NCBI GenBank assembly: GCA_025354165.1
Contig: JANXNI010000028.1
Location: forward strand, 62,001 to 126,000
Reading direction: 5' to 3'
Origin: Burkholderiales bacterium
GTDB taxonomy: Bacteria; Pseudomonadota; Gammaproteobacteria; Burkholderiales; Casimicrobiaceae
DNA length: 64,000 nucleotides
Made by a program: the position numbers and the translations under genes. Positions within the stretch are counted from its first letter, which is position 1; each line of letters opens with the position of its first letter. Positions 13,459 to 63,717 of this stretch are shown one piece after another. A model generated the notes under the pieces. It did no database searches and was not told the DNA's origin. It saw only the letters and a list, made by a program, of their open reading frames with translations.

Positions 13459-13574
13459 CAGCTTTTGTCTGTAATGACCACTCCGTTTGGGCAAGCCATG
13501 CATTTCGATAGTTATCGACTTTGCGCGATTATCGCGTTCAGCCCATGTCCGATAAGACGTTGATGCAAAAGTCA
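13459..13574 (+). repeat. Dispersed 116-bp intergenic element, copy 1
   Basis: This copy has CAGCTTTT at positions 1-8, TTGGG at 29-33, TCGAC at 57-61, GCCC at 83-86 and AAAAG at 109-113, the same spacing as the other five copies. TGGGC (30-34) can pair with GCCCA (83-87), a G-C to U-A change at the outer pair relative to copy 2. Two perfect small hairpins lie inside (CGATA/TATCG and CGCGAT/ATCGCG). It lies between ppk1 and a TonB receptor, 197 bp before the receptor start. Confidence 0.75.
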
Positions 13575-13689
13575 TTAACTACGCCCCAACTGGGTGCTGG
13601 TGCGCCATCTTTGTGTCGCAGCGCAGCATATTCGTGCTTGCCTTGCGGAAATACAACATGTTTGTTACAGGCAAATCCGATCCAGACCG

Positions 13690-13707
13690 TTTGTCATGGA
13701 ACGATCA
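13690..13707 (+). promoter_or_regulatory. Weak candidate Pho box upstream of the second TonB receptor
   Basis: TTGTCAT, GGAA, CGATCAT in 7-4-7 spacing, about 64 bp before the ATG at 13771. The second half site is poor, so this is only a candidate. If the gene started at the alternative ATG 13696 the site would fall in the coding region. Confidence 0.3.
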
Positions 13708-13770
13708 TTAATGCGGCGCACAAATGTGAAATATTCAAGAAACCCATTCATTCAAATTGCAAACAATTCC

Positions 13771-16212
13771 ATGCTTCCCGATCATTCTGTGTCCCCGTTT
13801 AGCGGTCTTCGCTTGAAAACCCTCGCGCGTGCCGTCGCCTTCGCTGTCGCCAGCGCCGCAGTCACTGGCGCGCTGGCCCAAACCGCCCCTGCCACTGAAG
13901 AGGCCGCGCCGCGCGCCAAAGACGATGCAGTGCGTCTCGGCACCATCACCATCACCGGCAGCGGCGACAAGCTCGGAGCCGGCCAGATATTGAATGAAGA
14001 CTCGGTCAAAGGCCGCAGCACGGTGACCAAGGCCGCGACCGAAAAGGATCGCGCGACTGGTAATCCGTACCAGGCGCTCTCGTTGTTGCCCGGCGTCAAC
14101 ACTTTTAACTACGACGGCACGGGCCTCTTCGGCGGCGGTTTCACGATGCGCGGGTTTGATGCGACCCAGATAGGCTTCACCATCAACGGTGTGCCGGTGA
14201 ACGATTCCGGAAGCTACTCGGTGTTCCCGCAGGAATACGTTGATCAGGAAAACATTTGCACGCAAAGCATCTCGCAAGGCTCGCCTGACGTCGAAGCGCC
14301 ACACGTAGGTGCCACTGGCGGTGCCGTGAATATCGTGATATGTGACCCGGAAAACACGCGTCGTTTCCGTGTTGCGCAAACGGTCGGTCAACTCAATCTC
14401 TCGCGCACTTATGTACGCGCAGACTCCGGCCGTTTCGCCAACGACATGGCCAAGGTCTTCATGAGCTTTTCGCACACCGAGGCTGACAAGTGGAAAGGCT
14501 CTGGCGCCGCGAAACGTGATCACTTCGATGCCGCGTTCTCATTTGATTTCTCACCAGAGAACCGCATCCTCGGGTCGGTCATGTACAACAGGGCTGTCAA
14601 CAATAACTTTCAGTCGTTCAGTCTGGCTCAGCTCAACACGCTGGGCTACAACGCCGACTATTCGTCCACCTTCACGCCCGGGCATTTGACGCCGGTGGCA
14701 GGCACCGCGCAGCTCGAAACCGGCCCGAAGTCGCCGCAACAGTTCTACAAGCTGGCGGTCAACCCGTTTGAAGACGCAGTGGTTTCGTTGTCAGGCTCGT
14801 TCAAGCTCGCTGAAAACACCTACCTTAAAGTGCAGCCTTACCTCTGGTATGGCTACGGTACTGGCGGCGTGCAGCAGCGCGCTCTGTCAGAGACAGGCTT
14901 CCTTAACCGTGCGACGGGCAGGCTTGGCGCAGGCCGTGACTTAAACGGCGACGGCGATACGCTTGACACCGTGATTGTTGCTAACAGCAGCGTCACCAAA
15001 ACCAATCGCCCTGGTATCACCGCTGAAATCAATCGCAGCTTCGATGCGCATCAGGTCAAAGTCGGCGTCTGGTACGAACGTGCCGAGCACCGGCAGACCG
15101 GGCCGGCTGTTGCCGTTGACGCCAACGGTAATCCCGCCGATATATGGTTGCGTGACGGCAAAATCCTGCGCCCCGATGGCACCCCGTTTGAATCCCGCGA
15201 CTGGCTGACGGTCAGCCCCGCGTGGCAGGCCTATTTCTCCGATTCGTACAGCTTCATGGGTGATCGCGGCCTGCTGCAATTGGGCGCGCGCGCCCTGCAA
15301 GTAACCCGTCAGTTCACCAACACCGCCAACGAAGGCGGCAGCACGGTGAACTTCAACAGTACTTATACCGTCCAGAAGACGTACCGCGATGTGTTGCCAC
15401 AAATCGGCGCTCGCTTCAATCTTGACTCGCAACAGCAATTGTTTGCGAACATTGGCAAGAACTTCCGCGCACCCCCTAACTTTGCTTATGCCCCGACCAA
15501 CGGCAACGTCACGATCGTCAATGGCGTAGCCTCACTGACCGGCGAGATTAAGGCTGAGACCTCGATCACAACCGACGTGGGCTACCGTTTCCAGAGCAAG
15601 GCAATCACCTTCTCGGCAACGGCTTTCAATGTGGATTTCAAGGATCGTCAGGCCAACGCGTTTGATCCAAACACGCTTAAGTCGATCTACACCAACGCCG
15701 GCAAGGCACGCACTCGTGGCGTCGAGTTTGAGTTGGGTACGGTGCCCGTGAACGGCTGGTCGGCGTATGCATCGCTCACGCTTCAGAAAAGCAAAGTGCT
15801 GAACGACATTCGCTCCAACGCCACACAGGTACTGCCAACGTCGGGCAAACAATTTTCGCTTACGCCGCAAACGCTTGCTGGCCTATCGATACAGTATGCC
15901 GATGGCCCGTACTACGTTCGCCTGAAAGCCAAGCACACGGGTAACCAGTTTGCGTCGCTGATGAACGATGAAGAAGTGCCGAGCTATATGACGGCCGACT
16001 TCGATGCAGGTTACAAGTTTGGTGACTTCGCGTTCGCGAAAAACACGATGCTTCGCTTGAACATCAGTAACGTTGGCAACACCAAGTATCGGAACCCGAG
16101 CTCCAACACAGTGCTGAACACGGTTGCGGTTGGTACACAAACCGCTAGCAGCGTGTTCTACTACCTTGGCGCACCGCGCTTCTTCTCGGTCACACTGAGC
16201 GCTGATTTCTAG
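13771..16212 (+). CDS. TonB-dependent outer membrane receptor
   Basis: 813 residues from the ATG at 13771, chosen because it puts a signal peptide near the N-terminus (LKTLARAVAFAVASAAVTGALAQ); ATGs at 13696 and 13711 are in frame and possible. After the signal comes LGTITITG, a TonB box-like segment, then a plug with LSLLPGVNTFNYDG, FTMRGFDATQIGFTINGVPVND and GATGGAVNIV. The barrel ends with FFSVTLSADF and a terminal Phe. The plug contains two Cys (NICTQS and VICDPEN) that may form a disulfide. Ligand unknown; the neighbouring nucleotidase and phosphatase genes suggest a phosphorus compound, but this is inference. A strong terminator follows. Confidence 0.92.
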   Translation: MLPDHSVSPFSGLRLKTLARAVAFAVASAAVTGALAQTAPATEEAAPRAKDDAVRLGTITITGSGDKLGAGQILNEDSVKGRSTVTKAATEKDRATGNPYQALSLLPGVNTFNYDGTGLFGGGFTMRGFDATQIGFTINGVPVNDSGSYSVFPQEYVDQENICTQSISQGSPDVEAPHVGATGGAVNIVICDPENTRRFRVAQTVGQLNLSRTYVRADSGRFANDMAKVFMSFSHTEADKWKGSGAAKRDHFDAAFSFDFSPENRILGSVMYNRAVNNNFQSFSLAQLNTLGYNADYSSTFTPGHLTPVAGTAQLETGPKSPQQFYKLAVNPFEDAVVSLSGSFKLAENTYLKVQPYLWYGYGTGGVQQRALSETGFLNRATGRLGAGRDLNGDGDTLDTVIVANSSVTKTNRPGITAEINRSFDAHQVKVGVWYERAEHRQTGPAVAVDANGNPADIWLRDGKILRPDGTPFESRDWLTVSPAWQAYFSDSYSFMGDRGLLQLGARALQVTRQFTNTANEGGSTVNFNSTYTVQKTYRDVLPQIGARFNLDSQQQLFANIGKNFRAPPNFAYAPTNGNVTIVNGVASLTGEIKAETSITTDVGYRFQSKAITFSATAFNVDFKDRQANAFDPNTLKSIYTNAGKARTRGVEFELGTVPVNGWSAYASLTLQKSKVLNDIRSNATQVLPTSGKQFSLTPQTLAGLSIQYADGPYYVRLKAKHTGNQFASLMNDEEVPSYMTADFDAGYKFGDFAFAKNTMLRLNISNVGNTKYRNPSSNTVLNTVAVGTQTASSVFYYLGAPRFFSVTLSADF

Positions 16213-16261
16213 ATTGGCGCAGCGTTGTCGTCTCGGGTCAAACCCGGGTGACGAAGATAAT

Positions 16262-16291
16262 AAAGCCGCGCCAAAGCGCGGCTTTATTTTT
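16262..16291 (+). terminator. Rho-independent terminator after the second TonB receptor
   Basis: A perfect 10-bp stem (AAAGCCGCGC / GCGCGGCTTT) with a CAAA loop is followed by ATTTTT. It starts 50 bp after the receptor stop and 35 bp before the nucleotidase start. Confidence 0.9.
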
Positions 16292-16325
16292 GGTAGTTTG
16301 TTGAATGAAGACTATGGAACACGCG

Positions 16326-21087: not shown

Positions 21088-21890
21088 GCTGCATCCGCAC
21101 CCAACAGATGATGGACGCGTGGCTCGATGGCGAGCTAGACCCGTCCACCGGCGAGGAGATTTCGCACCACGTCGGGCAGTGCGCGGATTGCGCTGCGCTC
21201 AAGGCCAGGCGCGAACAACTGCGCGCAACGCTGCAAGCCGCCGCGCCGCGCTACGCCGCACCGCCAGCACTGCGAAGCGCCGTGTTGAATCAGTTGCAAG
21301 CGGCGCAACAACCACCTGTCGCCCGCCCGCTTACGACCTCGCGCGGCCCCTCGTGGTGGCAAGCGACGGCGATGGCCGCTGCGACAAGTATCGTCACAGC
21401 GCTCGTCACCTGGGGCACGCTAGGCAAGCTGAGCGCGCCGTCGGGTGAACAGGTAGCCTTGGCTGATCAGGATCGGCGTCCCGTGCGCGAGCAGCTCGTC
21501 GCCCGTCACGTCGCCTCGCTGTCCGCGCCCAGCCTCATCGAAGTGCCCTCAAGCGACAGCCACGTCATCAAGCCGTGGTTTCAGGGCAAGATCGATTTCG
21601 CGCCCGTGGTTCGCGACTTGTCAGCGCAGGGCTTCACCTTGCTAGGGGCGCGCATGGAGCGCGTCTCCGGCCAGCGCGCCGTCGCCGTCGTCTACAAAAT
21701 TCGCGAACATCCGATCAACCTGTTCGTCTGGCCCGACATCTCGGGCCGCGACAGCGGCGCCGAACTCGCGACAGTGCGCGGTTTCAGCATGGGCAGTTGG
21801 GCCGCAGGCGGGCTCAATTTTGCGGCCGTATCCGATGTCGATGCGCATGACCTGGAGCGGTTTGTCATGGCGCTGCAAGCACCACGCTGA
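21084..21890 (+). CDS. Membrane-bound anti-sigma factor (zinc-finger type)
   Basis: 268 residues. The N-terminus holds a putative zinc anti-sigma domain: MMDAWLDGELD followed by ISHHVGQCADCAAL, the H-x3-C-x2-C motif. A single membrane segment follows (WWQATAMAAATSIVTALVTWG, about residues 90-111), and the C-terminal periplasmic domain has PWFQGKIDFAPVVRDL and the RAVAVVYKIREHPINLFVW block common to RsiW-like anti-sigma factors. It should hold the sigma factor at the membrane until a signal, possibly redox or metal given the Cys/His ligand set, releases it. Translation is coupled to the sigma gene. Confidence 0.9.
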   Translation: MSCIRTQQMMDAWLDGELDPSTGEEISHHVGQCADCAALKARREQLRATLQAAAPRYAAPPALRSAVLNQLQAAQQPPVARPLTTSRGPSWWQATAMAAATSIVTALVTWGTLGKLSAPSGEQVALADQDRRPVREQLVARHVASLSAPSLIEVPSSDSHVIKPWFQGKIDFAPVVRDLSAQGFTLLGARMERVSGQRAVAVVYKIREHPINLFVWPDISGRDSGAELATVRGFSMGSWAAGGLNFAAVSDVDAHDLERFVMALQAPR

Positions 21891-21904
21891 ACCGCCCGAC
21901 CTAA

Positions 21905-22020
21905 CAGCTTTTCCGTAAAACCCTTATTTTATTGGGGCTACAGGCCGTTTAATTGATAAACCGACAAAGTGTATTTCTCGCCATTTGCCCCTGTGACACA
22001 GCGCTTTCAACCAAAAGCTG
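21905..22020 (+). repeat. Dispersed 116-bp intergenic element, copy 2
   Basis: The best-paired copy: CAGCTTTT at positions 1-8 is fully complementary to AAAAGCTG at 109-116, GGGGC (30-34) to GCCCC (83-87), and GTTTA/TAAAC forms an inner hairpin before CCGAC (57-61). It fills the gap between the convergent anti-sigma gene (stop at 21890) and the exported protein gene (stop at 22030), so it may also end transcription there. Confidence 0.75.
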
Positions 22021-22029
22021 CTGACCTGC

Positions 22030-24717
22030 CTACTGCGCCAAAACGGCGTCCGTCACGTTCACCGAACAAAACACAGCGCCCTCATCGACCCAGCCTAGCG
22101 CCAGCATCTTCGCCTTCGTCGCGGCGCTAACGACGTAACGATGATTGCCTTCGTTGGTTGCTGATTTGTTGTTGAACAAGCGGTAGACCGCGTTCGGCGC
22201 GGGAGCGGAACAAACCGTCCCGGTCGGCTTTGTCGCAGCAAAATCGAACCCTTCAAACCGCAACGCGCTCGACGTATTCAACAGCGCACAATCGTCGCCC
22301 GTGCCATAAAAATGCGTGTTGCTGCCACCCCTATCTGGCGCTGCATAGAAGCGGCAGATCGGCGTCTCCGGCCGATCAGCGAAGCTGGCCGCGCTGCGTG
22401 CGCCAAACCTCATGCCGGTGCGTACAAAAGACGCTGGCAGCGCGTCCAGCGTGCTCTGTTCGTCGGCCCGTCCGGTCAAGAAATACCGCCCGGCATCGCG
22501 ACTGAAATATTCAATCACGGTCTTATCCTCGCTGGTCAGGCTTCGCGTGGTGATCATCTTGATGTCGTCGCCCTGACTGGCAACATATTCAATATCGTCG
22601 GAAGACTGCAGCTCGACGTCTTTGGTGAAGGCCGCATTCAAGCCAGCAGTGCGTGGAGCCGGTGCCGACCACGCAGGATCAGCGTCACCATTGCCTGATA
22701 ACGATGATCGACGAAGTGTCAATGTGTTGGTTTGATCAACAAGTTGCGTCCAATAAAGATAGTTGGCCGACAGCGTTTGCGCTGCCCAGCCCGAGTCTGA
22801 CGTTGCGGGCCGCCGCTGCCACGCTGGATCTTCCACGCTCGCTTGAGTAAGACCGTAGCGCTTTTCAGCGATGTATGCATGTTGGCGCGAACTGAGCAGC
22901 GACCTCGTCTGAAATGAAATGCGCCTGTTGGGAATGCTCGCGGTTTGCGCCCGCACCGCGAAATCAAAGCGCTCAATGAGATTTACCGTTGGGTTACCAA
23001 ACCCCGATACGTCCCAAAATAACCACAATCCGCCGAGCCGATCCGTATCAAGAGAGACGCCCTCGCCACGAAACGGCACCGACCACTCGGGGCTCAACAT
23101 ATTGTTGCTCACACTAAGCGCCTGCAGCGAAAGCAGGGCTGGCGTACCTGATGCTGCGTAAAACTGATCAGCACCATCGTAGGTGATTTGATAGGCACTC
23201 CGGGGCCATTGCGCCCCCCACTGTGGATCGACCGACGCGCCGGATGCAAGCGACACCAGCGCCACACTGGGTTTGAAGAACCCGGTAGCCGACGAAGCGC
23301 TGTTACTCGCAGCAACGCCATTGATCGACGTCATTGAACCGAAAACAACGACACCGCGCGGCGTCAAAAATGCATCTTGGATGTTCCCGTCCACGGTCAC
23401 TCGCCAGTCCTGCCTGACGTTGCCGTCGGCACCGATTCGCAGCAAGTTGCGGTAGCGCTGGCCACCATAGAACGCGTCAAATTGCCCCAAAATCAGGCGG
23501 CCGCCATCGGGCAGCGCGAGGACTTTGTACACCTCGGCGGTTCCCCCCAAAACATAGGGATAGGAATTTTTCAGGCGCAGCGTTGCAACATCAAACAACC
23601 AAACCGCGTCTGCAGTCGCGAAGTGAACTGCACCATTCGCCACCCCCATCAACGGGCGCTGAAGATACGATCGCCCAGCTGACGCGGCAGCAGGCAACGT
23701 CGCTCGCATCACCTCCGCGCCGCGATTGTCGAATCGCGCCATCTCGACCGGCAAAGATCCGGTCACCACGTCACGCGAAATGGTGACCAACAGTTCGTCG
23801 CCTGTTGCGAGCATGTCAAAGTTTTTGCCAGTCGCCGAAAGCGCCAGAAACGAATTCACCGACTGTTGTGAAGTCCAGGCCGTGTCAAGCTCGCCATTCG
23901 CGTCAAGCCGGATGATTTCAGCTTGGTAACCGTATGTGCCTTTCGTGAGCACGTACAGTCGACCCCGCGCGTCCGCCTCGACCTTTGAACGGGCCGTGAA
24001 AATTTCCTGCCGCCACAGCGGAGTGGCGTCGCCAACGGTACTCAGCCGCATGAATATCCTCGGCCATGCGGCATCACCTCCTGTGGAGGAACTCACCATG
24101 TATACCGCACCATCAGCACCCACTACCGGTATCGAATACTCCAACGGCAGTTCATACGTCCAACTGTCAACCTGATGGTTTCGGGTATCAAGCCGGCCGA
24201 TACGCACTTTGCTGTTTATTCCGACAGACTCGCGAGTCGTGAAGTAAAGCCAATGATCGTAGCCTCCAGCAATAGCCAGCAGTTGGGCTCGCGCGCCTAC
24301 AGCGTCTGGCGCAGGCGGGGTAAAGCGGACGACCGGCTCACTACCAGGGGCGGTGGACACGCTGACTACCGAAACGCCGTTCACGCTTCCAGCGGTTTGA
24401 CCGACGACGTAAACGTTGCCATTGGGCGCGAACACCGGTGCGCCTTGAACATAAAGCCGAAGCGCAGGACGCCAACTCAAGTCGGGAATGCCATCAAAGA
24501 CCCGGCCCAATCCGTTCGTCTTCACACCACTCAGCAGCGTGGAAAAGTTGGTCGCATAAATCAAACCACTCCTCGGATCGACGCTCAGTTGCCCGCTTTC
24601 GGGCCTGGTGAGCGTTGACAAATCAGGCAACGTTAGAAAGCGCTGCGCATGTAACTGCATCGAACCCAAACCGAGAAGCAACGCCAACAACCATCTACTC
24701 ATACCGCGAATCTCCAC
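22030..24717 (-). CDS. Large secreted beta-propeller-like protein with C-terminal DUF5648-type domain
   Basis: 895 residues. A signal peptide is clear (SRWLLALLLGLGSMQLHAQ); the ATG at 24702 is an alternative start. The middle is made of repeated strand-rich units with patterns such as RLDANGELDTAW, RIGADGNVRQDWRV and DGGRLILGQFDAFYG, similar to delta-60/propeller repeat proteins. The last 130 residues contain PICRFYAAP..NTHFYGTGDDCALL and PNAVYRLFNNKS..NHRYVVSAATKAKMLALGWVDEG, two copies of the YRFxN..HFYT pattern of DUF5648 lectin-like repeats. Probably exported to the surface; function unknown. It has no close operon partner. Confidence 0.8.
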   Translation of the reverse strand: MEIRGMSRWLLALLLGLGSMQLHAQRFLTLPDLSTLTRPESGQLSVDPRSGLIYATNFSTLLSGVKTNGLGRVFDGIPDLSWRPALRLYVQGAPVFAPNGNVYVVGQTAGSVNGVSVVSVSTAPGSEPVVRFTPPAPDAVGARAQLLAIAGGYDHWLYFTTRESVGINSKVRIGRLDTRNHQVDSWTYELPLEYSIPVVGADGAVYMVSSSTGGDAAWPRIFMRLSTVGDATPLWRQEIFTARSKVEADARGRLYVLTKGTYGYQAEIIRLDANGELDTAWTSQQSVNSFLALSATGKNFDMLATGDELLVTISRDVVTGSLPVEMARFDNRGAEVMRATLPAAASAGRSYLQRPLMGVANGAVHFATADAVWLFDVATLRLKNSYPYVLGGTAEVYKVLALPDGGRLILGQFDAFYGGQRYRNLLRIGADGNVRQDWRVTVDGNIQDAFLTPRGVVVFGSMTSINGVAASNSASSATGFFKPSVALVSLASGASVDPQWGAQWPRSAYQITYDGADQFYAASGTPALLSLQALSVSNNMLSPEWSVPFRGEGVSLDTDRLGGLWLFWDVSGFGNPTVNLIERFDFAVRAQTASIPNRRISFQTRSLLSSRQHAYIAEKRYGLTQASVEDPAWQRRPATSDSGWAAQTLSANYLYWTQLVDQTNTLTLRRSSLSGNGDADPAWSAPAPRTAGLNAAFTKDVELQSSDDIEYVASQGDDIKMITTRSLTSEDKTVIEYFSRDAGRYFLTGRADEQSTLDALPASFVRTGMRFGARSAASFADRPETPICRFYAAPDRGGSNTHFYGTGDDCALLNTSSALRFEGFDFAATKPTGTVCSAPAPNAVYRLFNNKSATNEGNHRYVVSAATKAKMLALGWVDEGAVFCSVNVTDAVLAQ

Positions 24718-32823: not shown

Positions 32824-32939
32824 CAGCTTTTACGTGTAGCCCTTATTGCATTGGGATTACACGATATATTTTGTATAAGTCGACTTGTGACGTTTCGCGT
32901 CAATAGCCCCTTTGCAGCGGTAATTGTGGCGCGAAGTTA
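32824..32939 (+). repeat. Dispersed 116-bp intergenic element, copy 3
   Basis: CAGCTTTT at 1-8, TTGGG at 28-32, TCGAC at 57-61 and GCCCC at 83-87. CGTGTA/TACACG with GCCC/GGG around a 10-nt loop forms a clear hairpin, and TGACG/CGTCA makes a second one after TCGAC. The 3' block (109-116) is CGAAGTTA, which still pairs partly with the 5' block. Both flanking genes run on the opposite strand. Confidence 0.75.
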
Positions 32940-33243: not shown

Positions 33244-35553
33244 TCACGGTGGGAGCAGACCCGTCAGATAGTTTTCGATTGGGGTGAACGTGATGCGAGT
33301 CGCCCCAACGCCGAGTGCCCCTACGATGAGCGCCGGGCCGCGAATGCCAAGTAGAAAGCGCGAGATCAACAGGCCGTCGGTGAGAGCGTCAACCTGGCCG
33401 TTGCCGTCGATATCGAGCATTGGTTTCAGATCGTCGAGATACGCTGTGAGTGCCGCTGCGGTGCTGCGCGTGGCATCGCCTGAAACCACGTTGCCGCTGA
33501 TCAGCGCGGCTCCGCTTATCCCGTTCAAGTAGCGCAGGATCAGCACGCCGTCATTGGCGTCGGTTGCAAGCGAGACGGGCGCGTTGCCTTCGACGTCCAG
33601 ATTGAACGGACCGTTGCTGGTCAATGCAAACGTGGCGGAGACGTTAGCTGCTGCGCTCAATGTCTTCGTGCAGGGCAAGGTGCCGCTGCAACCATTGCCG
33701 AGCCAACCAGTGAAGGTTGACGCCGCGCTGGTAGGCGTGGCGGTGAGCGTCACTGCGGCGCTCGCACCGAACGTGGCGCTGCACGCTACCCCGCAGTTGA
33801 TGCCTGCGGGCGATGACGTCACCGTGCCGCTACCAGAGCCGTTTTTAACCACTGTGAGCGCAACGGGCAACGCAGCCGTCACGCATTGCGAAAACTCGGA
33901 GGTATTTCCCACTGAATCGGTCGCAGTGGCTGTAACCACCGATTGTCCTGCGGGTAGGGCGGCAAACGTCGCATTGAAGCTGGCGTTGCCGCTGCCGTCG
34001 GTCGTGACTGATTGAAACCCGATGAACGTTTTGCCCTCGCCGTATCCCGACGGATCACACGCTGCGTTGGCGAAAAATTCAAGGCGGTACGTAGCACTGG
34101 CGATGCTGTTGAACGTGCCTTGCACATTGCCTGTCGCCGTGACAGTAGTAAGCACTGGAAAATTTTGCTGGCCGTTGACACCAAAGTCGCCGTCGCCAGT
34201 GTCGTTGAAGGTGACGCCTAAGCTGTTTTCGCTGCCCGGTGAATACAAGTTGATACCCAGTTGTGCATTCGAAAAAATCGAATTGCCAAGAATGGAATGG
34301 CCGTTGCCCGCTTGATCGCTGAGCAGTACGCCGGGGCCAGTGTTGAACGCGATGACGTTGCCTGCGCCTGCGGCCGTGCCACCTATCTGCGTGCCGATGA
34401 CCGCCGCGTTGCCCGAAACGTAAATGCCAGGCACACGAAACGCACTTGGCACGAATCCAGCAGGCGCGCTGCTGCCGGACACATCGGTGCCGATCCAGTT
34501 GCCCTGCACTACGACGTCGCTAGTCTGAATGACCACATTGGCCGTCGTAACGCTCGCGGCGATGACGTTGCCTGCACCAACCGCGCTGCCACCGATCACG
34601 CCGCCGCGACTGCTGATGGAAATACCGTATTGGCCGTTACCGAGTGCTGCCGCGCCTGTCACGTCAACACCGATGTAGTTGCCGGAAATCGTATTGTTGC
34701 TGGAGGCACCGGGGATGAAGGATTCGTCGTAGATGCCCGACGTGTTGCCGGAAATCACGTTGCGCGCGGCGGCTGTGCTGCCGCCAATGACGGTGTTTTT
34801 GCCTCCCGATTGCACGAACGCAATGGCTAATTCGTTGGCAATGGCGGCCGTTCCTGCGGCATTGGTTCCGATCACGTTCCCCAAAATCTGGGTGCCCAAA
34901 ATAGGATTGCTGGGCGACGAAATGAGGATTCCGGTGTTGTTGCCAGAAATCACATTTCGCGCAGCGGGCGTCGCGCCGCCGATCACGTTGTTGTGTGAAT
35001 TTGTCAGCACCGTCACACCGTTTTGAGCATCGGCAAAACCGGCACTGCCAGCCGCGTTGGTGCCCACAAAGTTGCCTTCAACCGCGTGATTGCCAGTGCC
35101 CCCAAGTGCGATACCTACGCGTCGGTTAAGTATGAGTCCACGCACGACACTACCGCTGACCCCCAAGACAATGTTGGTGCCGACGGTCGCCAGTGCACTG
35201 ATTTCCACGCGCAACGACGCGTTGCTGCCCACGTTCGGAGGATTGGTGTTTACCGTTGCACCAGACTGCGTGTAGCCATCAATCACCACGCTTTTCGTGA
35301 GCAGCGGCAGTCCGCTCAGCAACGAAATGGTGCAGACGCCGCTGGCCGCGATGCAGTTGGCGTCGGAGGCAGGAATGTTGAATGCGATGTTGTGTGGCCC
35401 GAGTGCAGGGACGGCATCGATGTCAAGAATCGCTTGCCGAAAACTACCAGGCAAGGCGTCGCTGGTGCTGTTGACTGTGAAGGTGGCTGCCTGTGCTGCT
35501 CCTGTCGCGAGCAAGACTACCGTTCCCAAACATTGGGCCATTAAGTGTTTCAT
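33244..35553 (-). CDS. Secreted right-handed beta-helix protein with C-terminal dockerin-like repeats
   Basis: 769 residues with a signal peptide (KHLMAQCLGTVVLLATGAAQAA). It begins with TFTVNSTSDALPGSFRQAI, a CSLREA-like opening common in surface beta-helix proteins. The helix is built from repeats of the type GNxIGTxxxG and xNVISGN (for example GNFVGTNAAG, RNVISGNNTG, GNYIGVDVTG, GNWIGTDVSG). A Cys-rich module similar to Big/FN3-like Listeria repeats follows (GINCGVACSATFGASAAVTLTATP). The tail has two Ca2+-binding dockerin-like units, one with LDIDGNGQVDALTDGLL. Likely an extracellular polysaccharide- or surface-associated protein; function unknown. Confidence 0.85.
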   Translation of the reverse strand: MKHLMAQCLGTVVLLATGAAQAATFTVNSTSDALPGSFRQAILDIDAVPALGPHNIAFNIPASDANCIAASGVCTISLLSGLPLLTKSVVIDGYTQSGATVNTNPPNVGSNASLRVEISALATVGTNIVLGVSGSVVRGLILNRRVGIALGGTGNHAVEGNFVGTNAAGSAGFADAQNGVTVLTNSHNNVIGGATPAARNVISGNNTGILISSPSNPILGTQILGNVIGTNAAGTAAIANELAIAFVQSGGKNTVIGGSTAAARNVISGNTSGIYDESFIPGASSNNTISGNYIGVDVTGAAALGNGQYGISISSRGGVIGGSAVGAGNVIAASVTTANVVIQTSDVVVQGNWIGTDVSGSSAPAGFVPSAFRVPGIYVSGNAAVIGTQIGGTAAGAGNVIAFNTGPGVLLSDQAGNGHSILGNSIFSNAQLGINLYSPGSENSLGVTFNDTGDGDFGVNGQQNFPVLTTVTATGNVQGTFNSIASATYRLEFFANAACDPSGYGEGKTFIGFQSVTTDGSGNASFNATFAALPAGQSVVTATATDSVGNTSEFSQCVTAALPVALTVVKNGSGSGTVTSSPAGINCGVACSATFGASAAVTLTATPTSAASTFTGWLGNGCSGTLPCTKTLSAAANVSATFALTSNGPFNLDVEGNAPVSLATDANDGVLILRYLNGISGAALISGNVVSGDATRSTAAALTAYLDDLKPMLDIDGNGQVDALTDGLLISRFLLGIRGPALIVGALGVGATRITFTPIENYLTGLLPP

Positions 35554-37829: not shown

Positions 37830-40800
37830 CTAACGAAGCGTCGCCGCGAGCGCCTCAGTCTCCGCCGCCGGTTGAATGCCGAGCACCACGGACAAATGCT
37901 GTCGACAACTACGGTACGCCTCGCGTGCTTCCGCCGTGCGGCCCAGCCTGTGCAGGCAGGCCATGAGATGCCGCACCGCGACTTCCGACAAGGGCTCGCG
38001 CTCGATTACGCGGCGATACACCAGCGCGGCTGATTCATGCCGCCCCTGCGCTTCAAGCAACGCGCCGGACGCCGACAGCTGACGCACAAACATCGCCCGC
38101 AGACGATTGCGCGCCGTCATGACTTCGGGATAAGTTTCGTCCCCGGCGAGAAAGTCGCCTTGATACAGCGCCAGCGTGGTGGTAACGAACTGCTCGATCA
38201 CGTTCGCCTCCGAAATTTCCGTCAATGCTTCAGCCTGACGCAAACAATCCGTTAGCTCGGTAACGTCCGTCCAGCAGGTCGCCGTGTTGAGGCTGAGCGC
38301 GCCCGATTGCAAAACGATGTGACGCTCGCCGATGAGTTTGCGCAGCCGGTGTACCGCGTTGTCAAACGAGTTTTGCGCGGCATCGCCCGCCATGTCGGGC
38401 CAAAGCAATGCGGACAGGCGATCAACGCGAACCGCCGTGCCGCCCAGCGCGATCATGAGCTTCAGCAGGTCGAGCGGCTTCCGGCTTTCTTTGCGCGACT
38501 GCGCCATCGCTTTGCCGTCGCATTCAACCGCGAAATGACCGAAGCAACGAATGCGGATCGGCCACGGCCAATGTTCGCCCGCGTTCTTCGGGGCGGGCAA
38601 CGCGTAACGCTTGACGATGTCGGCCGCGAGCTGTCGGTCAATGTCATGATTCAGTGCCAACGCACATAAGCGCGACATCGTCTGGCCGCAACAGTAGGGC
38701 AGCGGCCCGTAGTCAAAACCATAGGTTCTGGCCACGGCAAATGCTTGCCGTAGCGCGCTCAGGCATTGCGGCATATCACCGCACTGAACTGCCAAATCGG
38801 CATGCACCAATCCGGCAATCCAGTGATGGAATTTGCATACTGCGTAGAACGGCTGTGCTCTGGCTTCCGCCAACGCCGAGTCGGCTTCAGCGAAGGCACC
38901 CGTCTGCGTCGCCGTCATCGCTACGCCGATCAGCGCAATGTTCTCGCGCAGCGGCCAGCCGCATTCGCGCGCGCTTTCGCGCGATGCCCGCATCAGGCGA
39001 TGCGCGAGGATCCAATTGCCATCAAGCAAGGCGAGCAGACTGCGCTGAAACTCGTACGTAGTGACGTCTATCGGGCTCGATGGCGCGACCAGCGCGGTGG
39101 CTTCGTCGAGATGTGTTCGCGCAAGTCCTGCATCGCGCGCCGCGAGTGCGGCGAGCACCATCAGCAGGTGCGCTTTAGCCATCATGGGCGGCTGGCCCGC
39201 TGCTACGACCAAGGAAGCACGGGCGTCGCTTAAAGCTTCATTGATCAGACCGCGCAACGAACGTATCAGCACGCCGATGCCGTACCAGCGCAAACGCGTT
39301 GACGCTGCCGTGTCGTCGCTCTGGCACATGCGATCAATTTTCGCCATCGTGCGATCCAGCCGATCCAGCTGCCCGGTCCACAACAGGAATATGGCGAACG
39401 TTCCAAGCAGAATGCGCTGGCTGCGCGCTTGGGGTTGGTCGAGCAGGCTCTCCGCGACGTCGGCGAGGCGAGCGGTCAACGGATCAGCCGTGCACCTGTG
39501 AACGTAGGCAGCGAGCAGGCCGGGTAGTACGCGCAGATCGAGATCAACATTGGGGCTAACCTCACGCTTCGCCAGATAGGCGGGCGCATGGGTCGCCAGA
39601 ATATGGATCCACGATTCAAGCGTGTCATAGCGTTCGCCAAGCGACACGATGGCGTCTGCAGCGGCGGCGGCGGTTTGAAAAAGGCCGTTGCTATCGGAGC
39701 AAGCCGCAAATCCGGTTTCGGCCTGTTTTAGCTCCAGCAACGCGTTCGCTGGATTCGATGCCATCTGGCAGACGCCGCTCCAGTACAGCATCGCCGGAAG
39801 CGCGTGTTGCTCAGCGGGAAGGGCGCGAATCCATTCGAGCACAGTCGCCGTTCGGCCCTGCACCACAAAACTGCCCGCGTGTTCCGTCAGCATCGCCGCC
39901 GCGTCGGTCCAGGCCGCTGCGCCCACGAATTGCGTGATGGCAACGTCTGTCTGTCCGCGAGCGGCCAGAAGCCTGGCAGCCGACAACCGCAGCGCTTGCA
40001 AATCAGACGGCGAAAGCGTGGCCACGGCTTGCGCACGCAGAAACTCGCCGAACAGCGCGTGAAAAGTGTAGACCGGCTCGGCGCCTGCGCGTCGATCAGT
40101 GAATAGACTGCGCGCGGTCAGGTCCGCCAGAACTAGCGCGGCACGATCATTGCCACTCAGAGCGACGGCCATTGACGCAGTCATGCTGGGCAGGAACGCG
40201 ATGCGCACCAGGGTCGCAGCATCATGCGGCGGCATTTTGGCCAACACTTCTGCGGCAAACAAGGCAAACAGTTGATTGCGCGCCGGTGCATCAGGACCCG
40301 TGGCATTCACGTCGATGGATACACGAGCGGCCATCATCAGAATCATCGCCGCAGCCCAACCGTCGGTACTCGCTTGCAAGACGTCCGCTGCCATTGTGTG
40401 GTCGTGCAGGTCAACGAGGGCGCGAGTTTCATCGAGCGTGAAACGAAGCGAGTGAGCGTCGATGACGCAGAGTTGCTGCGCCGCCAACGCCCGCGCGAAT
40501 GTACCGGACGGCAGATCGCGGCTGACAAAAATAATCTGGGCGTGACGCGGCAGCTCGTCCAGCACGGCGATCAGCCCGGCGTGTACTGCGGAGGTAGGGT
40601 GAACTTCCTGAAAATTGTCGAGCACCAACGTCCAGCGCGCTGAAATCGTGGCGTCCAGATGGCGGAAGCAGCGTCGAATGAATCCGGTGGTGTCGCGCAG
40701 ATCATCACTCGTCGGCGCGGGTAAGCGCGAGCGGCGACGCGGTAGTGCGTCAACAATGGCTAGATCGAGAAAATGCGCAAATGTGGCCGGGTCGGCATCG

Positions 40801-41027
40801 CCCGCATCCAGCTGCATCCAGAGGGTCTTTGCACGTCGCGACTCCAGATAAGTGGCCACCAGCGTCGTTTTGCCGACACCGGGCGGTCCCGCGACCCAAA
40901 TGCCCGACGTCTCGGCGGCGTCGTCAAGGCGTGCAAACAACCGCTCGCGCGCAAACACCCGTCCCAGTCGCGGCGGCATGAGTTTGCCGAGCGCGGATCG
41001 TTTGTTACGGGGAACGACAGTTGGCAT
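37830..41027 (-). CDS. Large STAND ATPase transcriptional regulator with C-terminal winged helix and BTAD domain
   Basis: 1065 residues. The N-terminal MalT-like NTPase has Walker A GPPGVGKTT (47-55) and Walker B TLVLDNFQEVH, with FVSRDLP after it. A long helical TPR-like middle follows (about 340-800). The C-terminus carries an OmpR-type winged helix (IRCFGHFAVECDGKAM..KPLDLLKLMIALGG..LWPDMAGDAAQNSFDNAVHRLRKLI) and a BTAD domain (LYQGDFLAGD..HLSVVLGIQPAAETE). Such proteins switch on nearby genes when the ATPase senses a ligand. The Bug/methyltransferase operon lies just downstream and is a plausible target. The start overlaps element copy 4 on the other strand. Confidence 0.88.
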   Translation of the reverse strand: MPTVVPRNKRSALGKLMPPRLGRVFARERLFARLDDAAETSGIWVAGPPGVGKTTLVATYLESRRAKTLWMQLDAGDADPATFAHFLDLAIVDALPRRRSRLPAPTSDDLRDTTGFIRRCFRHLDATISARWTLVLDNFQEVHPTSAVHAGLIAVLDELPRHAQIIFVSRDLPSGTFARALAAQQLCVIDAHSLRFTLDETRALVDLHDHTMAADVLQASTDGWAAAMILMMAARVSIDVNATGPDAPARNQLFALFAAEVLAKMPPHDAATLVRIAFLPSMTASMAVALSGNDRAALVLADLTARSLFTDRRAGAEPVYTFHALFGEFLRAQAVATLSPSDLQALRLSAARLLAARGQTDVAITQFVGAAAWTDAAAMLTEHAGSFVVQGRTATVLEWIRALPAEQHALPAMLYWSGVCQMASNPANALLELKQAETGFAACSDSNGLFQTAAAAADAIVSLGERYDTLESWIHILATHAPAYLAKREVSPNVDLDLRVLPGLLAAYVHRCTADPLTARLADVAESLLDQPQARSQRILLGTFAIFLLWTGQLDRLDRTMAKIDRMCQSDDTAASTRLRWYGIGVLIRSLRGLINEALSDARASLVVAAGQPPMMAKAHLLMVLAALAARDAGLARTHLDEATALVAPSSPIDVTTYEFQRSLLALLDGNWILAHRLMRASRESARECGWPLRENIALIGVAMTATQTGAFAEADSALAEARAQPFYAVCKFHHWIAGLVHADLAVQCGDMPQCLSALRQAFAVARTYGFDYGPLPYCCGQTMSRLCALALNHDIDRQLAADIVKRYALPAPKNAGEHWPWPIRIRCFGHFAVECDGKAMAQSRKESRKPLDLLKLMIALGGTAVRVDRLSALLWPDMAGDAAQNSFDNAVHRLRKLIGERHIVLQSGALSLNTATCWTDVTELTDCLRQAEALTEISEANVIEQFVTTTLALYQGDFLAGDETYPEVMTARNRLRAMFVRQLSASGALLEAQGRHESAALVYRRVIEREPLSEVAVRHLMACLHRLGRTAEAREAYRSCRQHLSVVLGIQPAAETEALAATLR

Positions 41028-41131
41028 GCCGGAATAGTAGTTCTACAGGATCAATGTAAAAATCTTCTTGATCGACTTGTGCACTTTTGACGGCATAGCC
41101 CACGTGAAATGGGGCGTTCAGCAAAAAGCTG
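41016..41131 (+). repeat. Dispersed 116-bp intergenic element, copy 4 (5' half eroded)
   Basis: The 3' half keeps all blocks at the family positions: TCGAC at 57-61 followed by TTGTG, GCCC at 83-86 and AAAAGCTG at 109-116. GATCAA/TTGATC forms the hairpin before TCGAC. The 5' block is not recognisable because positions 1-12 lie in the start of the regulator gene on the minus strand. The copy ends 74 bp before the rsmB start on the plus strand. Confidence 0.65.
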
Positions 41132-41204
41132 TACGGCTCGGATACACTGCCCGCTTCCCTGCTCTGCGCGCAACTTCTGCTGTTGCGCATTAAACCTTCG
41201 CGCG

Positions 41205-56171: not shown

Positions 56172-56287
56172 CAGCTTTTTCGCGGAATAACGGCTGCATT
56201 GGGGCTGGCAGGCCATTATGCGCATTGTCGACAATGATCGTTTCATACGCCTAGCCCCGGTAAAATCGAGTTTTCAGCGAAAAGCCT
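56172..56287 (+). repeat. Dispersed 116-bp intergenic element, copy 5
   Basis: CAGCTTTT at 1-8, ATTGGGGCT at 27-35, TCGAC at 57-61, AGCCCC at 82-87 and AAAAGC at 109-114. GGGGCT and AGCCCC are fully complementary (6 bp), and CAGCTTTT pairs with AAAAGC. ATTGTCGACAAT is a 12-bp palindrome over the TCGAC block. Its last base is the first base of the DUF934 stop on the opposite strand. Confidence 0.75.
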
Positions 56288-59865: not shown

Positions 59866-60954
59866 TTAAAACAATTGTCCTTGCGCGGTGTCTGCGCGCG
59901 GTGGTTTGAACTGTGTGAGGTCGAGCGCGGGCAGGCGTGTCGCAGACAAATTTAGTCGCGCACAGGTTTTGCGAAAGCGCTGCCGGATCAGGTCGGCGAA
60001 GATGCCGGTGCCGCGCATGCGCTCGCCGAACTCGCTCACATTTTCGCGACCGCCTTTCATGTCGCGAATGCGGTTCATGACGTGTTCTGCACGGTCAGGG
60101 AAATGCGTCGCGAGCCAGTCCTTGAACAAATCCTTCAACTCGTACGGCAGGCGAATCACGGTGTAGCTGCCGCACAGCGCGCCCGCCTCAGCAGAGGCTT
60201 CAAGCACGCGCTCGACGAATTCGTCGTTGATGAACGGGATGATGGGTGCGACGAGTACCGACGTTGGAATGCCTGCGTCTGCAAGTTCGCGTACTGCGCG
60301 CAGGCGGGTGGCCGGCGTTGACGCGCGCGGCTCGAGAATGCGCGTGAGTTCGTTGTCGAGCTGCGAGATCGAGACGAACACGTTGACCAGATTCTTCGCC
60401 GCGAGCGGCGCGAGCAGATCAATGTCGCGACAGATCAGCGCGTTTTTGGTGACAATGGTGAGCGGGTGATTGCACTCAGACAACACTTCGAGGAGGCTGC
60501 GTGTAATGCGTTCGGTTTTCTCAATCGGCTGGTACGGATCGGTATTCGCGCCTAAGTTAATTGCCGAGACAACGTAGCCGCGCTTGCCGAGTTCTTTGCG
60601 CAGCAATTCAGCGGCGTTGCGCTTGGCAAACAGTTGCGTCTCGAAGTCCATGCCGGGCGACAGGTTCAGGTACGAATGCGTGGGCCGCGCATAGCAATAA
60701 ATGCAGCCGTGTTCACAGCCACGGTACGGGTTGATTGATTGGGTGAAGCGCAGGTCGGGCGATTCGTTGTGCGAAATGATGGAGCGCGCCTGCTCGATGT
60801 GAATGACGGTTTTCGGTCGCTTCGCCGCACGCTCGATGGCCTCTTCTTCACCCCATCCGTCGTCGAACCACTCGGCATCACGCGACTCGAAGCGCCCCGC
60901 CATATTGAGCGTGGCACCGCGACCTTTTGCGGTGAGCGGAGGCGAATTTTTCAT
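59866..60954 (-). CDS. Radical SAM protein of the PA0069 (SplB-like) family
   Basis: 362 residues from the ATG at 60954; a longer frame extends to 61509 but overlaps the lipoprotein gene. The radical SAM cluster is INPYRGCEHGCIYCYARPTHSYL (CxxxCxxC), followed by VSAINLGANTDPYQPIEKT and LTIVTKNALICRDIDLL. ISQLDNELTRILEPRASTPATRLRAVREL and the C-terminal AGALCGSYTVIRLPYELKDLF match PA0069-type proteins, related in fold to spore photoproduct lyase. Function is not established; DNA repair or modification is possible. Confidence 0.92.
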   Translation of the reverse strand: MKNSPPLTAKGRGATLNMAGRFESRDAEWFDDGWGEEEAIERAAKRPKTVIHIEQARSIISHNESPDLRFTQSINPYRGCEHGCIYCYARPTHSYLNLSPGMDFETQLFAKRNAAELLRKELGKRGYVVSAINLGANTDPYQPIEKTERITRSLLEVLSECNHPLTIVTKNALICRDIDLLAPLAAKNLVNVFVSISQLDNELTRILEPRASTPATRLRAVRELADAGIPTSVLVAPIIPFINDEFVERVLEASAEAGALCGSYTVIRLPYELKDLFKDWLATHFPDRAEHVMNRIRDMKGGRENVSEFGERMRGTGIFADLIRQRFRKTCARLNLSATRLPALDLTQFKPPRADTAQGQLF

Positions 60955-61081
60955 GCTGTTATTATGTACAGTTACCAATGCAAAATGCAAGTGAGAATTG
61001 AACCATTCGGTGCGGCGCAGTTGGGCGGTTGCCATAGACTCTGAGCTTAAGTATTTTTTGCAGCTTGCAGAGGGAGAAATG

Positions 61082-61324
61082 ATGTTGACGAAATCAATTT
61101 TCGTGATGGTCGGTGTGGTGGTGTTCGGGGGGTTGGCCGGATGTGCCAGCGAGCCGCAGAAGGACGCTAGCGCGGGCACAGATGCGGTAGCGAAGAAGGA
61201 CGAGCGATGCATGGTGACGGGCAGCAATCTTCCCAAGCGCGATTGCCTGGCCGATGTCAAGGTACTGCCGCCGTCAGCGGTTGAAAGTGTTTTGCCGACG
61301 CTGCGTGGCGCGAGCCAGCAATAA
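61082..61324 (+). CDS. Small lipoprotein of unknown function
   Basis: 80 residues from the ATG at 61082, with GGGAG at the right distance; an ATG directly before it (61079) is also in frame. A lipoprotein signal ends in the lipobox LAGC. The short mature part is charged and ends with CMVTGSNLPKRDCLADVKVL, where two Cys may pair. Divergent from the radical SAM gene and convergent with the DegV-like gene. I do not recognise a family, though short Cys-pair lipoproteins of this kind are common in Burkholderiales. Confidence 0.7.
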   Translation: MLTKSIFVMVGVVVFGGLAGCASEPQKDASAGTDAVAKKDERCMVTGSNLPKRDCLADVKVLPPSAVESVLPTLRGASQQ

Positions 61325-61325
61325 A

Positions 61326-62426
61326 TTAGCCGTGAAACCGTTCGCTGGCGAAGGCGATGCAGATCGCGCCTGGGCCGAGTTTGACGCAGCCCATCATGCT
61401 CATCGGTGTCATGATGAGCTCGGCGCGGTGCAGTCTGCACTCTGCGCTGAGCAGACCGAAAGCTGGCAACGCCCGCAGCGCTTCGCCGTCGCCAGCGACG
61501 CTGATGCACACGGTCGGCGTCGATAATCCGAGCGCAACATGGCGCGTGGCAATCGACAGCGCGCGCTCACACGCACCATCGAAACTTTTGACCCGCGTCA
61601 GCATGCCGCCGCTGCCGCGCTCGGCGATCAGTACCGGCCGCAGATCAAGCATCTTTGCCCACCAGTATTTCCAGCGCGGCATGCCTTCGCCGCTCGCGCC
61701 CTGGCTGTGTAGCGTCCGATACAAATATCCCAGGTCGTCAGGCACGACCAGCGTGCGCACCTGTTTGCGAAAATTTTCCAGCGTCGTTGCGATGTCACTG
61801 GCCGGCATGCCACTGTCACGCAGGCGCACCGCGTGCGCGAGCAGCACGCCCATGCCCGCGAGGCCGGTGAACGAATCGATCACCCACGCCTTGAGCGGAC
61901 CGCTGCTGCCGAGCGAACGGCGCACTTTGTTGTGAATCAGCATCAGCGACTGGCTGGCCGCGAGCGAGCTTAAATAGACCGAGCTGCCGGTTGCAGAAAA
62001 CGCAATTTGCACTACGAAATCAATCGTGGGTGTCATCCAGGTTTGCACGTAATCGCGAATCTGTACCGGTCGCGACGGGCTGATTTCCAGCAGCGTCGGC
62101 CGTTCGTTTTTTGGTCCGTTGAGGCGGTCAGCAAACTGCATGCGATCAAGCTCGTCGCCCTCATCGCGAACCTGTTCGGCGTCGCGCGCGACATTAACGG
62201 GCACTATGGCGACGTTGTGTTTGGCCAGCCAGCCGCTTGGCATGTCGCAACCTGCGTCGACCACGAGCAAAATGCGCGCGGCGTTCGGCGAGATTTCATT
62301 TAACTCACGGCTCGCTGCGGCGCGACGTGCAGCGGCGGCGGCGGTGTCGCGCACGTATTGCAGCGCCGCTGTGGTGGGAACGTCGAGCGCCGAGTAACCT
62401 TCGTTGTCGTAGGAGGTGCGATCCAT
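61326..62426 (-). CDS. DegV family (fatty-acid-binding) protein
   Basis: 366 residues. The DegV fold is seen in ILLVVDAGCDMPSGWLAKHNVAIVPVNV, the SATGSSVYLSSLAAS block (like GLSGTYQSA), VIDSFTGLAGMGVLLAHAV and DLGYLYRTLHSQGASGEG, RPVLIAERGSGGMLTRVKSF. An N-terminal extension of about 50 residues precedes the fold. DegV proteins bind a fatty acid and may feed FakA kinases; no FakA is visible. The stop lies 1 bp from the convergent lipoprotein stop. Confidence 0.85.
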   Translation of the reverse strand: MDRTSYDNEGYSALDVPTTAALQYVRDTAAAAARRAAASRELNEISPNAARILLVVDAGCDMPSGWLAKHNVAIVPVNVARDAEQVRDEGDELDRMQFADRLNGPKNERPTLLEISPSRPVQIRDYVQTWMTPTIDFVVQIAFSATGSSVYLSSLAASQSLMLIHNKVRRSLGSSGPLKAWVIDSFTGLAGMGVLLAHAVRLRDSGMPASDIATTLENFRKQVRTLVVPDDLGYLYRTLHSQGASGEGMPRWKYWWAKMLDLRPVLIAERGSGGMLTRVKSFDGACERALSIATRHVALGLSTPTVCISVAGDGEALRALPAFGLLSAECRLHRAELIMTPMSMMGCVKLGPGAICIAFASERFHG

Positions 62427-62582
62427 GTCGTTGTCATTTCTATTGACGCGTTTTAAGCATCAGCGCATGCGCATGGGATAACGCGCACCGAAATCAGTGT
62501 AAATGCCTTGAGACGGATGTACAGCAAGATTGTGAAGACAATCGTGGTATCCGGTTTATCTTCAGTTTTTGTCGCAGCCGCG

Positions 62583-63506
62583 CTACACCTGACGCATCAA
62601 GGTCGATTTGCCAAACAGGCTTTCAATCAGGTCCACCGCCAACTGCGCGGTGCGATTTCGCACGTCGAGCGCGGGGTTTAATTCCATGACGTCAAGCGAC
62701 GCCAGACGCCCGGTGTCGGCGATCATTTCCATGCACAGTTGCGCCTCGCGATAGGTCGGCCCGCCGGGCACCGTGGTGCCGACGCCAGGCGCGATATCCG
62801 GATCCAGAAAATCAACGTCAAAGCTCACATGCAGATGGGTGTTTTCGTCGACCCCGGCGAGCGCGCGCTCCATCACCGCACGCATGCCGAGTTCGTCAAT
62901 CGAGCGCATGTCGAATACTTCCAGACCCTGTTCATGCACGAAGCGTTTTTCCTCGGGATCAACGCTGCGAATGCCGATCTGGATGATCTCATCGCGTTTA
63001 AGCGCAGGTGCCGGATCGGCGAGATTCACCAGCGCCCCGGCACCGAAACCAAACAGCGTCGCCACTGGCATGCCGTGAATATTGCCGGACGGTGTGATTG
63101 AGCTGGTATTGAAATCAGCGTGCGCGTCCAGCCAGAGCACCAGCAGACGCTTTTTCGCGCGTTCGCAGTGCGCGGCAATCGCGGTGATCGAGCCAATCGC
63201 TAGGCAATGATCGCCACCGAGTAGCACCGGAAACTCTCTCGCATTGAGTGCATGCGTCACCGCATCTCGCACCGCAACATTCCACGCCAGCGTCTCCGGC
63301 AAATGACGATAACCCCCCGACGGTGGCAACCAAGGGTTCGGCGGGCCGGACAGGTTGCCGTCATCAACGACATTCAAACCGCGCGCGCTCAATGCATCCG
63401 CCAGCCCCGCCACACGCAGCGCCTCCGGCCCCATCGAAGCGCCGCGCGAACCCGCGCCAATGTCGGTGGGCGCGCCGATCAGGCGGAGAGTAGGGTGAGA
63501 TTTCAT
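62583..63506 (-). CDS. rocF: Arginase
   Basis: 307 residues from the ATG at 63506. The Mn2+ ligands are present: LLGGDHCLAIGS (His), LWLDAHADFNT (two Asp and His), and VSFDVDFLDPDIAPG (two Asp). MELNPALDVRNRTAQLAVDLIESLFG closes the fold. The GGDHS motif has Cys in place of Ser, seen in some members. It splits arginine into ornithine and urea in the cytoplasm. It is upstream of the DegV-like gene on the same strand with a 156-bp gap, so it probably has its own transcript. Confidence 0.92.
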   Translation of the reverse strand: MKSHPTLRLIGAPTDIGAGSRGASMGPEALRVAGLADALSARGLNVVDDGNLSGPPNPWLPPSGGYRHLPETLAWNVAVRDAVTHALNAREFPVLLGGDHCLAIGSITAIAAHCERAKKRLLVLWLDAHADFNTSSITPSGNIHGMPVATLFGFGAGALVNLADPAPALKRDEIIQIGIRSVDPEEKRFVHEQGLEVFDMRSIDELGMRAVMERALAGVDENTHLHVSFDVDFLDPDIAPGVGTTVPGGPTYREAQLCMEMIADTGRLASLDVMELNPALDVRNRTAQLAVDLIESLFGKSTLMRQV

Positions 63507-63601
63507 GCGATGGATTGTAAGAGTCAAACGTGACTACGACGGGCAACAGGACGGAAGGCGTGGCCTCAATCGGCGCGGATAAGGGAGGGGAAATTTAGGA
63601 T

Positions 63602-63717
63602 TAGCATTTGGCTGTAAGCCTGGCTGAACTTGGGATAGCGTCGATATTTGGCGTTTATCGACTTGTGGCGGAACGGTGTGTGAGCCCCTGTTCCGCCGTC
63701 GTTAGCAACGAAAGTTG
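63602..63717 (+). repeat. Dispersed 116-bp intergenic element, copy 6
   Basis: TAGCATTT at 1-8, TTGGG at 29-33, TCGAC at 57-61 followed by TTGTG, GCCCC at 83-87 and GAAAGTTG at 109-116. The 5' and 3' end blocks pair with wobbles and one mismatch (7 of 8), and TCGATA/TATCGA forms the hairpin before TCGAC. The copy lies between the arginase start and the DUF4189 stop, both on the opposite strand. Confidence 0.75.

Follow-up and report, generated by a model that had tools for sequence, protein, structure and literature searches.

The window analysed here is a stretch of 64,000 nucleotides (bases 62,001-126,000 of contig 53) from the 4.72-Mb, 97-contig genome of a Burkholderiales bacterium, referred to as G000. 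An earlier note had described six 116-bp copies of an element in the window, and both their coordinates and their internal spacings proved correct. Copy 1 (13459-13574; profile E 2.9e-15) lies between two divergent genes, for a polyphosphate kinase (-) and a TonB-dependent receptor (+), copy 2 (21905-22020; E 2e-20) in a 139-bp convergent gap, and copies 3 (32824-32939; E 2.4e-15) and 5 (56172-56287; E 5e-21) in tandem gaps, as does copy 6 (63602-63717; E 5.3e-13), which has a TAGC end and adjoins an arginase-family gene. Copy 4 (41016-41131; E 4.6e-10) is degenerate: its right half alone (41071-41132) matches the profile, and its decayed left half runs into the start of a minus-strand ORF (37830-41027) that encodes a BTAD regulator domain. 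We assign no strand to any of the six. That all had been placed on the plus strand carries little information, because the motif is nearly its own reverse complement, and an EM test revealed no asymmetry clearly beyond that of random half-site pairing (z 1.7). Two long ORFs in the window were also recorded, namely one of 769 aa (33244-35553, minus strand) with no Pfam family at E 0.001, and one of 895 aa (22030-24717, minus strand) whose sole match is a C-terminal DUF5648.

We searched 60 further stretches of the genome, which together with the window amount to 1.237 Mb (26% of G000). A symmetrised profile HMM, built on 105 G000 copies that included five from the window and left out copy 4, recovered all six window copies (E 5e-21 to 4.6e-10) and found 126 copies in the sample, 125 of them at E <1e-6, against a best E of only 2.4 in the same 1.237 Mb after shuffling. 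An iterated, symmetrised, ungapped weight matrix gave 114 loci above 15 bits and zero above 10 bits on shuffled or reversed sequence. Further, a strict pattern matched 72+85 times in G000 (some copies being counted on both strands), and its reversed version 0+1 times. The element occurs far above chance. The density is one 116-bp site per 9.8 kb, and extrapolation from 126 copies in 1.237 Mb gives an estimated ~480 sites in the whole genome. Four of the 126 matches, only 53-66 bp long, consist of one recognisable half and a degenerate partner; the statistics given below for 105 copies refer to those above 60 bits with full flanks, drawn from the 114 (matrix) or 126 (profile) found.

Species-specific profiles, also symmetrised, were made for G005, G002 and G007. 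In G005 and G002, with 400 kb searched in each, they located 38 and 44 sites, and 39 were located in 325 kb of G007. Of these, 38, 30 and 32, respectively, had E <1e-8, and shuffled sequence gave no match for G005 and best E values of 2.9 and 1.5 for G002 and G007. The densities per 10 kb, 0.95, 1.1 and 1.2, are close to the 1.02 of G000.

Anatomy of the site and its reading as RNA or DNA

Each site has dyad symmetry, being composed of two inverted half-sites of ~58 bp joined at TCGA. From the end to the centre, the consensus runs through CAGCTTTT, TGAAA, C, a TGCA-like block and GGGGCTA, and then through an A/T block at columns 44-47 and another at 53-55 to GTCGAC at the centre; W-rich bases extend ~3 positions beyond each end. 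Since profiles and matrices were symmetrised, this consensus is symmetric by construction; the symmetry is also visible in single copies, as a pattern silent on the right end still retrieves AAAGCTG-like right ends. The information content amounts to ~87 bits across 122 columns and is sparsely distributed, with 34 columns above 1 bit. The 60 best ungapped copies align over the 122 columns without a gap, which is partly a matter of choice, and a second alignment comprised 95 copies from four species. Singling out 480 places in a genome of 4.7 Mb would take 13.3 bits, and the ~87 bits of the site are about six times that; ordinary regulator sites carry far less.

Identity among the 105 copies, compared in the same orientation, has a mean of 0.526 (0.53 for independent columns), an sd of 0.046 vs 0.041 and a maximum of 0.69. 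The mean is close to the independent-column expectation and therefore the variable positions are near saturation, with little family tree. The pairing of halves is nearly constant: a half-site search of the sampled 26% of G000 returned 245 matches at E up to 1, of which 244 fall inside the 126 elements, and the lone half-site outside them has an E of 0.068.

The earlier note had offered a selected RNA structure as one explanation, with pairing between positions 1-8 and 109-116 and between 30-34 and 83-87. These pairings arise because the consensus is symmetric. Across the 105 copies, variation at one position is independent of that at its mirror position (64 pairs, mean z 0.03), and the arms are about as complementary as independent columns would be. 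Taking 60 copies, the two proposed helices pair in 87.2% of cells vs 87.1% in shuffles, and shuffling gives at least as much pairing in 247 of 500 trials, so there is no covariation; for the full set of mirror positions the figures are 60.8% and 61.8%. The other species agree, with no excess of mirror pairing in G002 (z -1.7), G005 (z 0.5) or G007 (z 0.3). There is no Rfam match in the window at the gathering threshold, and the interval around copy 2 (21850-22080) has none up to E 1. A structured RNA or transcribed hairpin element, for which the symmetric consensus can pair on paper, is therefore extremely improbable, given arms without covariation in four species, no Rfam match and no clear strand asymmetry.

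Among local hairpins sought in the four species, the best value (z 4.1; paired fraction 0.36 vs 0.32) belongs to one local dyad in G007. This slight excess sits at a local centre near a sub-palindrome like GCCCAATTTAATTGGGC, which lies ~33 bp from the site centre in G007 half-sites (for example in locus L281, 13109-13232). Sub-palindromes of this kind hint at further dimer-like contacts.

Neighbouring bases, on the other hand, are strongly coupled in the 105 copies, at columns 45-46 (z 32) and at 55-56 and 54-55 (z 26). Columns 45-46 of the 210 half-sites read TT in 91, AA in 71, AT in 26 and TA in 17 cases (162 being AA or TT), which is the behaviour of an A-tract or of shape readout. Moreover, the A/T fraction oscillates with a period of 9.6 bp (bootstrap sd 0.05; permutation p 0.0008 with periods of 8.5-12 bp searched). 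Coupled adjacent bases together with A/T patches every 9.6 bp point to protein-bound DNA. Simple wrapping is made less convincing by another peak in the spectrum, at 7.4-7.8 bp, which exceeds the first in the outer 45 bp.

Placement among genes and spacing along the chromosome

Gene context in G000 was taken from a simple hexamer gene finder, which left seven of the 126 copies without a flanking gene on one side. The other 119 are intergenic: no overlap with a predicted gene exceeds 60 bp, and a single one exceeds 30 bp. They occupy 62 tandem, 31 divergent and 26 convergent gaps; as such gaps of 130 bp or more number 230, 104 and 48, this corresponds to an occupancy of 27%, 30% and 54%, respectively, and to an enrichment of sites in convergent gaps (OR 3.06, p 4e-4). 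In the tandem cases, the site lies closer to the 3' end of the upstream gene, at a median distance of 35.5 bp vs 120.5 bp on the other side (p 2e-4). The flanking genes that were scanned are mostly ordinary, such as those for polyphosphate kinase, TonB receptor, 16S methyltransferase, sulphite reductase and arginase. Readings as a promoter, a terminator or a peptide were considered on the basis of the consensus and dropped; the copies occupy convergent, divergent and tandem gaps alike.

Spacing is more even than intergenic placement would produce in two of the four species. In G000 (98 spacings on nine contigs, mean 10.4 kb) the CV is 0.68 vs 0.89±0.07 for a random choice of intergenic gaps, with none of 2000 random sets as even, and spacings below 2 kb make up 2% vs 13% in the null. 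In G005 the CV is 0.40 vs 0.84±0.11 (0 of 2000), and none of 33 spacings falls below 2.5 kb vs 21% in the null. Against the same intergenic null, G007 is marginal (CV 0.74 vs 0.95, p 0.035) and G002 is not significant (0.70 vs 0.78, p 0.23); a plain uniform null gives p 0.0375 and 0.0385, respectively. Overlaps with genes by more than 40 bp were seen for 8 of 44 profile matches in G002, 4 of 39 in G007 and 1 of 38 in G005, and hence some of the weaker matches in G002 and G007 may be false or gene starts wrong. Site density over the 61 stretches of G000 is under-dispersed, with a mean of 2.04 per 20 kb and a variance of 0.95. Two site-free gaps of ~42-44 kb were seen in G000, on contig 8 (~57-99 kb) and contig 17 (~34-78 kb). 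The 20-kb stretches wholly free of sites within them have slightly lower GC and codon score, and the gaps are possibly acquired DNA.

The ~10-kb interval raises the possibility that the sites are strong DNA gyrase sites, the genus's own version of a gyrase trap, as diffusible supercoil domains are put at ~10 kb in the abstract of PMC3420936 and the enrichment in convergent gaps would fit. The E. coli gyrase motif, described in passages of PMC6379681 as symmetric, 120-130 bp long and marked by a periodic A/T and G/C pattern, and given the same length in part of PMC12324340, resembles our site (116 bp plus W-rich edges) in symmetry, length and periodic A/T pattern. It differs in that our site is base-specific (~87 bits) and confined to one genus among the genomes searched. 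The -4G/+8C preference, consistent across the enzymes studied according to the same part of PMC12324340, is not seen here: if the cut is centred on the dyad, G has a frequency of 0.08 at column 53, and +1 is T at 0.96. For the -2A/+6T preference, column 55 has A at 0.65 and T at 0.35. Further, the period is 9.6 bp and not the 10-11 bp of the GC periodicity in the flanks of the gyrase motif, and GyrA shows no genus-specific feature, its C-terminal blades being ordinary and alike (6 matches) in G000 and in G016, a member of the genus that lacks the sites; G014 gave no GyrA C-terminal match. We therefore consider a gyrase trap very unlikely.

Conservation in place, turnover and mobility

At least 83 stretches from relatives carry the consensus pattern; the 80 listed belong to four sets of MAG records, JANXUB and JANXNO (Burkholderiales), JAPUER (Betaproteobacteria) and JAFEDD (Proteobacteria), the first two of which correspond by match coordinates to G001 and G006. 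Among the listed stretches there are 89 profile matches, and 35 of these have a syntenic flank in the G000 sample. In 21 of the 35, a G000 copy lies within 400 bp of the matching place. The other 14 have no G000 counterpart, so that copies can be gained or lost and there is turnover between species; 13 of these 14 places could be aligned, none of them a clean empty site, and one lies at a stretch edge. In 20 ortholog pairs (the weakest of the 21 being dropped, and two sharing one G000 site), identity is 580/673 at conserved, 552/891 at intermediate and 395/813 at variable columns, against 1227/1954 in aligned flanks, a comparison biased towards conservation as the relatives' copies were fetched by the consensus pattern and those of G000 had passed the profile. 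The saturation of variable columns within a single genome shows constraint on the sparse conserved columns free of this bias. The view of the earlier note that this is a selected intergenic element with rigid spacing is supported.

The same note had also considered a nested palindromic mobile repeat. Our results speak against it, as there is no clear target-site duplication, identity does not exceed 0.69 and conserved columns are kept at orthologous places. At the exact ends, duplications of 1-12 bp reach at most z 2.5. In a scan for flanking direct repeats at offsets from the ends, one of 78 tests gave z 3.7, uncorrected (identity 0.296 vs 0.259). No near-identical copies occur among the 105 compared, which represent ~22% of the estimated total; the one exception is a local cluster of duplicates that have diverged, where the best identity is 84% over 147 bp. 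No stretch with the exact consensus pattern was found in viral contigs. The copies do not behave like an active mobile repeat.

The cluster of variant copies lies at ~12265-15833 of locus L087 (contig 59, 20001-40000). Compared with the copy at 35646 of contig 59, two members show identities of 84% over 147 bp and 79% over 161 bp, spans that include extra 5' flank, and one matches in part; the CAGCTTTT end is replaced. The cluster adjoins a reverse transcriptase gene (PADLOC RT_UG19, E 2.9e-166). This enzyme was considered and rejected, being matched at E 1e-20 in G000 alone, one of 40 genomes. Near 15 kb of L087, and also in loci L063/L112 and L044, there is a second palindromic intergenic repeat, GTGGGAGCGGTTCCACCGCGA-like and REP-like in look.

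It is conceivable that an ancient MITE family, with two terminal inverted repeats back to back, gave rise to the sites and that its copies are now bound by a domesticated transposase. The abutting inverted ends, the local cluster of duplicated variants, the turnover between species and the single uncorrected offset test at z 3.7 are all compatible with such an origin. Weighing against it are the exact ends without target duplication, the 0.69 ceiling on identity and the single orphan half-site in 245. Further, site density shows a weak positive correlation with GC (rho 0.37) and with codon score (rho 0.32), a trend partly confounded by gap number (rho 0.37), and the retention of conserved columns at fixed places is not explained by mobility alone. 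Keeping both sides in mind, we regard a MITE origin as unlikely. As part of the best explanation, we infer that the copies are DNA recognition sites, neither RNA genes nor recent mobile insertions.

Species dialects, a putative reader and known systems

The G000 model found matches in 16 of the 17 genus members. Under a stricter filter, which loses weak matches, none of 47 genomes from six other genera of the family matched, and in an order-wide set of 300 genomes 6 matched, all among the 7 genus members drawn. A model combining four dialects, run on 40 genomes, matched 16 of the 17 that belong to the genus and none of the 23 others, figures to be read with the proviso that a more diverged dialect in another genus would escape these models. 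Two members of the genus have genomes of 2.5-2.6 Mb; G016 has no site match and G009 has 11 weak places up to E 0.01, from which it follows that small genomes, at least, can do without the system. These may be lineages that lost the sites or, alternatively, lineages that predate their expansion.

Within the genus, the architecture is kept and the wording changes. Measured from GGGCT to TCGA, the inner spacer has 21 bp in all 80 JANXUB arms and in 127 of the 137 G000 arms that could be measured; it has 22 bp in all 23 JAFEDD arms and is mixed in JANXNO and JAPUER (22 bp in 23 of 33 and 16 of 21 arms). For the outer spacer, 231 of the 239 arms from the five show a length of 22. These counts depend on a fetch pattern in which either inner length was permitted, the outer spacer was set in one arm and the consensus blocks were demanded. 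G007 has gcCCaaTTtaatTGGGCga in place of the TGCA..GGGGCTA block of G000, and in both G002 and G007 the centre reads tt.TCGA.aa. The same architecture and density, with wording changed at many sites together, call for a shared trans-acting reader.

Such concerted change would be accounted for by molecular drive, if the sites were self-recognition or DNA-uptake tags read by a receptor or translocase, with dialects in the manner of USS and DUS. We regard this as a serious, if rather unlikely, rival because dialects are known there (DUS dialects, passages of PMC3630211), as is, according to Karlin as cited in part of PMC1939737, even spacing, the evenness of which PMC1939737 itself doubts in that part. 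Many copies and species dialects are common to both systems as far as these sources describe them. Unlike known uptake sequences, whose cores in the sources' accounts measure 9-12 bp and occur about once per kb in H. influenzae, the present site is 116 bp long, some ten times longer, occurs at the lower density of one per 9.8 kb and nearly always has its halves paired.

Cumulatively, our findings favour chromosome-organising sites bound by a symmetric DNA-binding complex of ~120 bp with a putative reader protein, a reading to which we give a probability of roughly 0.55. In this model, a two-fold symmetric protein or complex would read the site as double-stranded DNA, contacting ~120 bp and probably bending or wrapping it. 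The ~480 sites, one per ~10 kb and outside genes, would be kept in place by selection, and the bound complex would anchor, insulate or load something on the chromosome at ~10-kb intervals. We infer the existence of the binding protein and its co-evolution with the sites; wrapping and a role in chromosome architecture are more speculative. A fuller version, which we put forward tentatively and hold to be somewhat more likely wrong than right, is an undescribed architecture system, a quasi-regular lattice of ~10 kb in which a genus-specific protein would wrap each site and, by co-evolving with hundreds of them at once, give rise to the species dialects. No genus-specific HU/IHF paralogue was found as a candidate, PF00216 being present in 2-4 copies per genome in 17 genus members and in 3 copies in each of 7 other family members. 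A known factor could turn out to be the reader.

Hundreds of sites per genome whose wording changes jointly between species represent a rare natural experiment in protein-DNA co-evolution, and this joint change makes the reader findable by comparing genomes. The boundaries of bacterial chromosome domains are usually thought to be independent of a fixed sequence. Were the ~10-kb lattice architectural, it would offer a sequence handle on these domains.

Among the titles and opening parts of abstracts listed from the literature, no description of the 116-bp element was found. We propose that it belongs to a categorically new class of sequence element with a putative function, because each known kind tested fails at least one defining feature; ERIC and RAYT/REP are set apart by description. 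ERIC, also called RU-1, and MITE-like repeats are likened to the site by size and placement, and the site differs from them in its saturated variable columns, its conserved position and the absence of a clear target duplication. RU-1, in passages of PMC2759123, is intergenic and, at 127 bp, of similar size to the 116-bp site. REPs are described in part of PMC3733652 as 20-40 bp long, a palindrome with a GTAG or CGTC tag. REP and BIME share with our element the many intergenic, symmetric copies; unlike them, it is 116 bp long, has CAGC/GCTG ends and is without hairpin covariation. The organiser sites matS, parS and those of Noc type are alike in being chromosomal sites read by a protein, which is putative in the present case, and they are much shorter than 116 bp.
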